DNA of 34,470 nucleotides from Fibrobacter sp. (GTDB lineage Bacteria; Fibrobacterota; Fibrobacteria; Fibrobacterales; Fibrobacteraceae): the NCBI GenBank assembly GCA_024399015.1, contig JAKSIC010000030.1, forward strand, positions 1-34,470. The letters are read 5' to 3'. Shown in pieces: positions 32,002-33,161 of this stretch; the first letter of the stretch is position 1; each line of letters starts with the position of its first letter. A program made the position numbers and the translations under genes. The notes beneath the pieces were generated by a model, which was not told the DNA's origin, ran no database searches, and worked only from the letters and a program-made list of their open reading frames with translations.

Positions 32002-32220
32002 ATGAGCAAGGTTTTGATTTTAGTGGGAAGCCCGCGAAAGAGCGGCAATACTGAACTCCTGGCGAACGCCTTTGCCGAGGGGGCTGCTAGTGCGCATCAT
32101 GAAGTATTTTTGGGGCAAATTAGCGAAAATGTGTCACTAAAGAAGAATTTTTCTCAATTTGGTAACAAAAATTACATACAAATTAAACTAAAAAGTGTCA
32201 ATATAATATATCTTTGCTGA
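32002..32220 (+). pseudogene. Truncated flavodoxin/NADPH-dependent FMN reductase remnant
   Basis: The first 35 or so residues are a good flavodoxin-type start: MSKVLILVGSPRKSGNT, with the FMN-phosphate loop SPRKSGNT, then a helix. Complete relatives have 150-200 residues. After about base 32108 the homology ends abruptly, the base composition becomes strongly AT-rich and the frame closes at residue 72. No continuation is found in any frame nearby. It looks like the 5' stub of a gene cut off by deletion or by arrival of the AT-rich island. Start lacks a ribosome site. Confidence 0.75.
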
Positions 32221-32380
32221 TAACAAGCCTATGATTATGCCACTAAAAAGGTGATTTGCTTAATTTGGTGACAAAATTTTTTGATGAAAAGGAAATAGAA
32301 TTTCGTACAAAGTAAAAATTATGTCACCGAATATAAATTTTTTATGAAATAGTGACAATTTTTTTTGAAAAAGAACCTTG
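32110..32380. repeat. AT-rich island with three TGTCAC-N24-GTGACA modules
   Basis: No gene is seen. TGYCAC is followed exactly 30 bases later by GTRACA in three copies: 32132/32162, 32238/32268 and 32322/32352. The arms are inverted repeats; the third copy is perfect. Copies 1 and 2 agree at about 32 of 42 positions across the module. Copy-to-copy distances are 106 and 84 bp. An extra GTGTCA occurs at 32195. No CRISPR-type uniform repeat or known element fits. Confidence 0.65.
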
Positions 32381-32389
32381 TTGCGAACA

Positions 32390-32422
32390 AAAAAGGCCTG
32401 AGCGAAGCTGCTCAGGTCTTTT
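32390..32422. terminator. Bidirectional terminator
   Basis: GGCCTGAGC (32395-32403) pairs with GCTCAGGTC (32410-32418); TTTT follows and AAAAAA precedes. Confidence 0.8.
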
Positions 32423-32431
32423 AAATTTGGT

Positions 32432-32620
32432 GGAACCGCGATTGTCGCGGCATTCGCCTTGCTAGTAATGGCACGCTTCGCGTGCCTTACTTGTCGGCTC
32501 GGAAATGGAAATGAACACGTTCATTTCCGCTTCTCTCGCCTTGCTAATAATTTTGCCACTTCGTGGCGAATTACTGGTCTCGGTCATAGAAACAAGCGAG
32601 CTTGTTCTGCGACACTCGAC
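32432..32620. repeat. Array of five hairpins with alternating conserved spacers
   Basis: Perfect stems: CCGCGA/TCGCGG (32436-32450), GGCACGC/GCGTGCC (32470-32486), GGAAATGAAC/GTTCATTTCC (32507-32528), GCCAC/GTGGC (32555-32567) and AACAAGC/GCTTGTT (32591-32606). Spacers alternate between a type containing TCGCCTTGCTARTAAT and a type containing TTACT-GTC-CGG. Flank words recur at 10.5, 10.7 and 13.5 kb (for example CTCGGTCATAG and CTGCGACACTC). Confidence 0.7.
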
Positions 32621-32621
32621 C

Positions 32622-33161
32622 TTAGTAATTCTCAGCGTTGACTTCGAAGTAGGACTGCGGATGAGCGCAGGTCGGGCAGACTTCAGGAGCCTTGGTGCCA
32701 ACGACGATGTGACCGCAGTTGCGGCATTCCCAAACCTTAACTTCGCTCTTTTCGAAGACTGCGGAAGTTTCCACATTCTTGAGGAGTGCGCGGTAGCGTT
32801 CTTCGTGGTGCTTTTCGATAGCGCCTACCAGGCGGAACTTCTTTGCGAGAGCTGCGAAACCTTCGGCTTCGGCGGTCTTTGCAAATTCTTCGTACATGTC
32901 GGTCCATTCGTAGTTTTCACCGTCGGCTGCGGCCTTCAGGTTTTCTGCAGTGTCACCGATGCCGTTCAGTTCCTTGAACCACATCTTGGCATGTTCCTTT
33001 TCGTTTTCTGCAGTCTTCAGGAACAGTGCTGCGATCTGTTCGAAACCATCCTTCTTTGCGCGGGATGCAAAGTAAGTGTACTTGTTACGAGCCTGGGATT
33101 CGCCTGCAAATGCAGCTTCGAGGTTCTTTTCGGTCTGGGTACCAGCGTACTTGTTTGCCAT
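32622..33161 (-). CDS. Rubrerythrin
   Basis: 179 residues: a four-helix diiron domain and a C-terminal rubredoxin-type domain. Iron ligands lie in [11 protein letters not shown] (Glu20), [10 protein letters not shown] (Glu, His), and [10 protein letters not shown] near residue 115; the rubredoxin iron site is CRNCGH and CPTCAH. Rubrerythrin reduces peroxide in the cytoplasm of anaerobes. AAGGAGAC is 5-6 nt before the start. A TATATT box lies 40-50 bp upstream. Its 3' end abuts the hairpin array. Fits a strict anaerobe. Confidence 0.96.

Follow-up and report, generated by a model that had tools for sequence, protein, structure and literature searches.

The nearest described concept to the elements analyzed here is that of REP sequences and REPINs with their RAYT (TnpA-REP) proteins, from which the Fibrobacter elements differ in enzyme, copy number, geometry, and domain exchange (PMC3116915, PMC3733652, PMC8266576). 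As in REP/RAYT systems, the arrays of palindromes that we describe fall into several families, each with a cognate nuclease-type gene beside its own palindrome, and solitary copies lie in intergenic DNA. However, RAYTs are HUH/Y1 proteins, whereas the linked Fibrobacter protein is PD-(D/E)XK-like and has no Pfam or NCBIfam family. The Fibrobacter arrays are also low in copy number (six of the class of interest in its genome), consist of three phased modules and two constant boxes, and share only motifs between copies; the high-copy, near-identical recent copies of REP elements were not what we found. Unlike in REP/RAYT systems, specificity in Fibrobacter is switched by exchange of an N-terminal domain together with the array.

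Other systems resemble parts of this arrangement. In type I HsdS and type IIG restriction-modification proteins, as in the family described here, a variable DNA-recognition domain is recombined against a conserved catalytic part so that specificity diversifies among close relatives. In contrast to restriction-modification targets, the Fibrobacter targets are multimodule arrays in the organism's own genome, one of them beside the gene, and no methyltransferase recurred among the immediate neighbors of arrays. Control (C) proteins of restriction-modification systems and toxin-antitoxin operators likewise have palindromes just upstream of the presumed binder's gene, but C proteins are small HTH proteins, and Fibrobacter arrays of the same class, with their full architecture, also occur far from the gene. 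The res sites of the Tn3 family (three resolvase-dimer subsites) share three inverted-repeat subsites at whole-turn spacing with our arrays, whereas the Fibrobacter subsites are equal in length, come with constant boxes, and occur in scattered copies. A Tn3 res site was rejected because no serine recombinase is linked; among immediate array neighbors, no serine resolvase recurred, and only the PD-(D/E)XK-type family did so as a candidate binder. Compact proteins of nuclease type also accompany arrays in TIGR-Tas systems. In the linked protein, a helical hairpin at the N terminus aligned with TasH at a Z of about 8, and since long helices commonly reach this level, we did not accept TIGR-Tas membership on this likeness. 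A Pfam search found no Nop domain in the linked protein, and in contrast to tandem TIGR guide arrays, the Fibrobacter modules lie 53 to 106 bp apart in whole helical turns, each with the same palindrome. A CRISPR- or TIGR-like array was rejected because the repeats are palindromic and spaced, with a palindrome constant within its class and a variable loop.

The window, the whole 34,470-nt stretch that was analyzed, belongs to a 3.34-Mb Fibrobacter genome (G000); the survey of the genus covered 80 genomes, many of them incomplete MAGs. A pattern scan of the window detected exact TGYCAC-N24-GTRACA modules at 32132-32167, 32238-32273, and 32322-32357. An earlier reading of this DNA from its sequence only had described three equal modules spaced 106 and 84 bp apart (start to start), which our scan bore out; 0.03 matches are expected in the window by chance, and no shuffle reached the observed count. 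The arms proved to be 10 bp long (TGTCACYAAA and TTTRGTGACA), forming a 36-bp module, TGTCACYAAA-N16-TTTRGTGACA, that has a variable 16-nt center, with A or T predominating at its four middle positions. The single odd half-site in the window, GTAACA at 32162, is GTGACA in the sister genome G076, in which the rest of the array is nearly identical. The features of the array and its surroundings are as follows.

32132-32357, minus strand: the whole solitary array, class TGTCAC, 226 bp, in the order M1-B1-M2-B2-M3 on the minus strand
32322-32357, minus strand: module M1, a 36-bp palindrome
32307-32315, minus strand: B1 box, TTACTTTGT, 6 bp from M1
32238-32273, minus strand: module M2, a 36-bp palindrome, at a distance of 8 turns from M1 and 10 from M3
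32178-32186, minus strand: B2 box, TTAATTTGT, oriented as B1 and 10 bp from M3
32132-32167, minus strand: module M3, a 36-bp palindrome
32117-32131, no strand: outer AT-rich flank, approximate; the common outer-flank pattern, reading outward, is GTGACA-CATTTTCNNAAAAA
32358-32374, no strand: outer AT-rich flank on the opposite side, approximate
32002-32110, plus strand: remnant of a flavodoxin/NADPH-dependent FMN reductase-like gene beside M3; context, outside the array
32622-33161, minus strand: rubrerythrin-like gene on the M1 side; context, outside the array; matched in 16 of 16 tested genomes

The AT-rich island had been said to begin where a flavodoxin gene is cut off. The gene remnant is indeed there, but the exact coincidence of its end with the outer edge of the array does not hold, as the remnant is also cut off in G076, at a different point. 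We rejected the remnant as an array boundary because the truncation points differ between these two sister genomes. The pseudogene remnant is about 50 codons longer in G076 than at 32002-32110 of the window, so decay next to the array is still in progress.

A search of the genome for further copies, which the sequence-only reading had proposed, showed that its description of the island as an orphan was wrong. Six TGTCAC arrays occur in G000 (C6:31967-32191, C6:37482-37707, C12:164404-164619, C18:34833-35036, the window array on C24, and C42:76581-76806); in one of the two on C6, the middle module is 35 nt long and was not matched by the exact pattern. A lack of other copies and of conservation had been named as speaking against the feature; instead, copies in the genus are many, and their conservation is strong. 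The plan is nearly invariant in 35 TGTCAC arrays from nine genomes: M1, 6 bp, B1, M2 at a variable place, B2, 10 bp, and M3. The outer palindromes are fixed and the middle one movable, and the B boxes (consensus TTAVTTTRT) are direct repeats at fixed offsets. Due to this fixed order and the common orientation of B1 and B2, the array has a direction. The outer flanks of arrays are symmetric, with A/T-rich positions recurring every ~10 bp.

The spacing between modules had been considered loose, but it is quantized in whole helical turns. Start-to-start spacings in TGTCAC arrays are only 74, 84/85, 94/95, and 104 to 106 bp, with outer pairs at 168, 178 to 180, and 189 bp. Over 67 center-to-center spacings from all classes, picked by hand so that, to the best of our judgment, each ortholog group or class contributed a single array, the Rayleigh R was 0.93 at ~10.5 bp; random spacings never exceeded an R of 0.38 across all periods from 8 to 14 bp. 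Such phasing marks a protein complex whose sites must lie on one face of the DNA and is not expected of RNA hairpins. Thus, the whole-turn spacing argues for DNA-protein binding and disfavors the structured RNA that had been offered as one explanation, and the fixed inner geometry is a good fit to the other one, in which a dimeric protein would bind each module.

Strong TGTCAC-class arrays were present in 9 of the 80 Fibrobacter genomes and in none of the genomes from outside the genus in a test that included such genomes; matches to the module outside Fibrobacter were rejected as hairpins without B boxes or a linked protein. Other arrays differ in the hexamer. A hexamer-free pattern of half of M1 plus B1 (TTTRG-N11-TTAVTTTRT-NYG) matched in 39/80 genomes, with almost no matches for a reversed control, and an M1-B1 covariance model matched at an E of ≤0.1 in 57/80 genomes, where lone weak matches may be due to chance. 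No array was found by this model and threshold in 23/80 genomes. The hexamer varies both between and within genomes (GGGTG, GTCYGY, GTAGCA, GTACCC, GTAACC, and others), and its two arms covary (96 double-changed cells versus 43 in shuffles; covariation of 0.48 versus 0.15). In G000, the covariance model revealed the further classes GGGTAC (five arrays), ACTAGC, and ACGGGA. Many arrays of other classes carry B1 and B2 at the same offsets as in the TGTCAC class. We also observed variants of the plan. In the CAGAC class of G032 and G028, a palindrome of another kind, approximately ACGCAGATTCTGCGT, takes the place of the middle module, which suggests a second type of site in the middle position. 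G007 contains about ten ACCCAC-class arrays in which M2 and M3 are only 53 bp (5 turns) apart and the B2 box is missing, and two arrays of different class lie in tandem at G007:C46. A viral scan with the M1-B1 pattern produced 113 scattered stretches, whose palindromes were not checked singly, and the strict module produced one chance-like match.

A comparison of array neighbors with one another, with orthologous loci and the common Fib_succ_major proteins set aside, left one recurrent family, a protein of ~280 amino acids found in different genomes beside non-orthologous arrays that differ in class. It has no family in Pfam or NCBIfam and no sequence relative in the PDB. The protein contains RSKSE, YE, PDF, and WEH motifs, of which SE, PD(F), and WEH are invariant in 24 sequences, with H at the position of the usual lysine. 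Its C-terminal half matches the C terminus of the PADLOC candidate PDC-S68 (E down to 1e-28). In the predicted structure (pLDDT of 88), the C-terminal part aligns with TnsA (Z of 8.4 over 118 residues, 3.6 Å) and also with Bax1, VRR_NUC, and Can2; the best Foldseek matches were the restriction endonucleases DrdV and MunI and an R2 nuclease domain, all with an E of >0.001. These predictions support, with moderate strength, a restriction-endonuclease-like fold with a C-terminal domain of the PD-(D/E)XK type and not of a tyrosine or serine recombinase. In plasmid and phage collections, we detected only the C-terminal nuclease domain, within AAA/RecD-like ATPases, and one remote, nearly full-length relative, which came from human feces and has no array upstream. 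The method used in the viral scan found no viral contig encoding the family.

The protein and the arrays occur together. We found the protein in 48/80 Fibrobacter genomes, namely 46 of the 57 with arrays and 2 of the 23 array-free genomes, leaving 21 with neither (Fisher p = 2e-9), and the numbers of arrays and proteins correlated (Spearman, 0.75), both statistics being computed without correction for phylogeny. Eleven genomes, including the 100% complete G080, had array matches with no detected gene. At least two same-arm palindromes lay within 600 bp upstream of 34/41 linked genes, compared to 4/151 control windows and 5/43 downstream stretches, and M1 with B1 was nearest the start codon in the cases inspected. 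Furthermore, the four linked genes of G000 adjoin its four known classes, one each: TGTCAC on C6, GGGTAC on C40, ACTAGC on C12, and ACGGGA on C23. The array is upstream of the gene on C12, whereas the ACGGGA modules on C23 are on the 3′ side of the gene. Nuclease genes at G063:C9, G032:C4, and G009:C5 have four to six upstream palindromes in repeated pairs ~64 bp apart without recognizable B boxes, a second array layout in more distant family members.

Comparisons of allelic loci indicated which part of the protein may read the palindrome. Locus D carries a TGTCAC array in G000, G009, and G074 and a GGTTAC array in G075 and G076. Between these alleles, the C-terminal part of the locus D protein is 97 to 99% identical, versus ~54% for the first ~125 residues, and DNA homology of G000 to both G075 and G076 stops at the same point inside the gene and resumes beyond the array. 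Similarly, the C40 locus has a GGGTAC allele in G000, G009, and G076 and a GGACTC allele in G024, G075, and G077, with proteins 47% identical at the N terminus and 98% at the C terminus. Because the array and the N-terminal ~125 residues are exchanged as one block, these residues most likely read the palindrome. G076 retains five intact TGTCAC arrays although its locus D protein is now of the GGTTAC type. Thus, a match of class is not obligatory in the short term, and satellites do not disappear at once when their partner is lost.

Most arrays, that of the window included, are intergenic without a linked gene beside them. We consider it likely that the three modules of the window make up a solitary satellite, one of the DNA-binding arrays in a two-part Fibrobacter system that pairs a dialect-matched nuclease-like protein with scattered arrays and works as outlined below. 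For the window array, the best reading is that of a satellite for the protein encoded at G000:C6:36453-37301, which itself has a TGTCAC array directly upstream. The architecture, phasing, class families, gene-array linkage, and block exchange were computed directly; from these we infer cognate protein-array binding, which is well supported, as well as dimerization, autoregulation, and sequestration. The first part of the system would be the ~280-amino-acid protein, whose N-terminal domain varies and whose C-terminal nuclease domain, putatively of the PD-(D/E)XK type, is conserved, and the second would be the ~200- to 230-bp arrays of phased palindromes scattered in intergenic DNA, one class per protein. 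A dimer would read each palindrome via the N-terminal domain, one dimer per module, and the copies on three phased modules would share one face of the DNA. A B-box binder would then join the module-bound copies into a wrapped complex; perhaps this is the constant C-terminal domain, which, as a guess by analogy, might contact the constant B box. At the gene, the wrapped complex would autorepress transcription of the linked gene, and at satellites such as that of the window, it would hold the protein on the chromosome, as an anchor or by sequestration. A role in sequestration leaves unexplained why satellites keep their B boxes, orientation, and phasing.

The main rival is mobility with the protein as mobilizing enzyme: the arrays would be REP/MITE-like miniature mobile elements, the gene-linked array a master, and the window copy a non-autonomous one. 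This explanation, which we regard as unlikely, draws on the patchy distribution of arrays among orthologous loci (G000 has array F, which its sister G076 lacks at that place), on the likeness of the C-terminal fold to TnsA, and on the occurrence in a genome of several palindrome families, each with a single linked nuclease gene, as for REP families and RAYTs (PMC3116915, PMC8266576). However, copies of one class within a genome have different spacers, giving no sign of recent copying, the B boxes are repeated in direct and not inverted orientation, and the array does not include the gene. Locus comparisons with relatives found no clean insertion boundary, target duplication, or recent transposition, and a test for MITEs obtained no clean filled/empty pair with a target-site duplication, only the symmetric outer flanks.

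The protein might instead bind the arrays as sites of chromosome organization (partition-, domain-, or insulator-like), which we hold to be improbable. Consistent with such sites, the arrays are intergenic with an enrichment of convergent gene pairs around them (33/88 versus 53/256; p = 0.003), and their helical phasing suggests a structural complex. In addition, the same intergenic locus can carry different classes in different genomes: locus B in G064 and locus G in G075 have GGTTAC arrays where close relatives have another class. The spacers at locus G are unrelated, indicating replacement of the class and not drift; since arrays in many genomes will sometimes share a locus by chance, the claim of class change rests on close relatives only. 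Against this explanation, arrays cannot be essential given the 23/80 genomes without any, and if the role were purely structural, one would not expect a nuclease domain of catalytic type that has invariant residues.

At G064:C3:49525-70671, a ~21-kb defense island has a TGTCAC array on one side and a second copy of M1 with ~95 bp of flank on the other, which makes the array site an island site in this genome. The island encodes a type IIG restriction-modification protein, an AAA_13/RloC-like protein, Shedu SduA, GmrSD, DUF3800, DUF4357/RAMA, and YhcG nuclease proteins, and others; the arrangement in G075 looks the same, except that the array is of class GGTTAC. At G000:C23:180157-181740, the ACGGGA-class nuclease gene and two modules are flanked by two near-identical tRNA-Gly genes, and this unit looks as if it entered at a tRNA gene. 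Both loci would suit arrays that act as integration or recombination hot spots attracting islands, but the island is the single clear case, no integrase is among its annotated genes, and most arrays have no adjacent island, making this explanation highly improbable.

That the modules are RNA hairpins (structured RNA or terminators) is scarcely credible: the region folds better than shuffles (z = -4.1) and the arms covary, though a palindromic DNA site would do so too, and against hairpins stand the whole-turn spacing, the one hexamer in all modules of a class, the fixed B boxes, the lack of consistent gene orientation around arrays, and the lack of any Rfam family above its gathering score. 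The best Rfam match over the array region, to a T-box at 32275-32464, was rejected as chance (19 bits versus a cutoff of 93).

Returning to the two-part system of protein and satellites, we found in open-license papers no description of such repeats in Fibrobacter or of an array-protein pairing, and the genome paper of F. succinogenes S85 makes no mention of palindromic or intergenic elements (PMC3079729). Because the pairing matches nothing in Rfam, Pfam, NCBIfam, the PDB, or this literature and differs from REP/RAYT systems, it looks like a previously undescribed genome system. We propose, tentatively, that this is a new kind of system and consists of diversifying nuclease-type proteins, each with its own palindrome dialect set by an exchangeable N terminus, and matched arrays at conserved intergenic addresses that would tag self or hold the nuclease; the dialect would switch by joint replacement of array and recognition domain, with the satellites following. 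If true, many unexplained intergenic elements in a dominant fiber-degrading genus of the herbivore gut would be tied to an unnamed nuclease family by one-to-one protein-site pairing. The natural swaps of ~125-residue domains coinciding with a change of DNA target would serve as a ready-made test case for the evolution of DNA specificity, and satellites that switch dialect at the same locus would point to a cell- or element-level function undescribed in the open-license literature searched. Finally, we observed a change in a gene beside array F: at G000:C42:76246-76580, the 3′ end of tgt (queuine tRNA-ribosyltransferase) is replaced, and its apparent original end lies ~150 bp downstream, whereas the sister genome G076 has neither array F nor the change in tgt.
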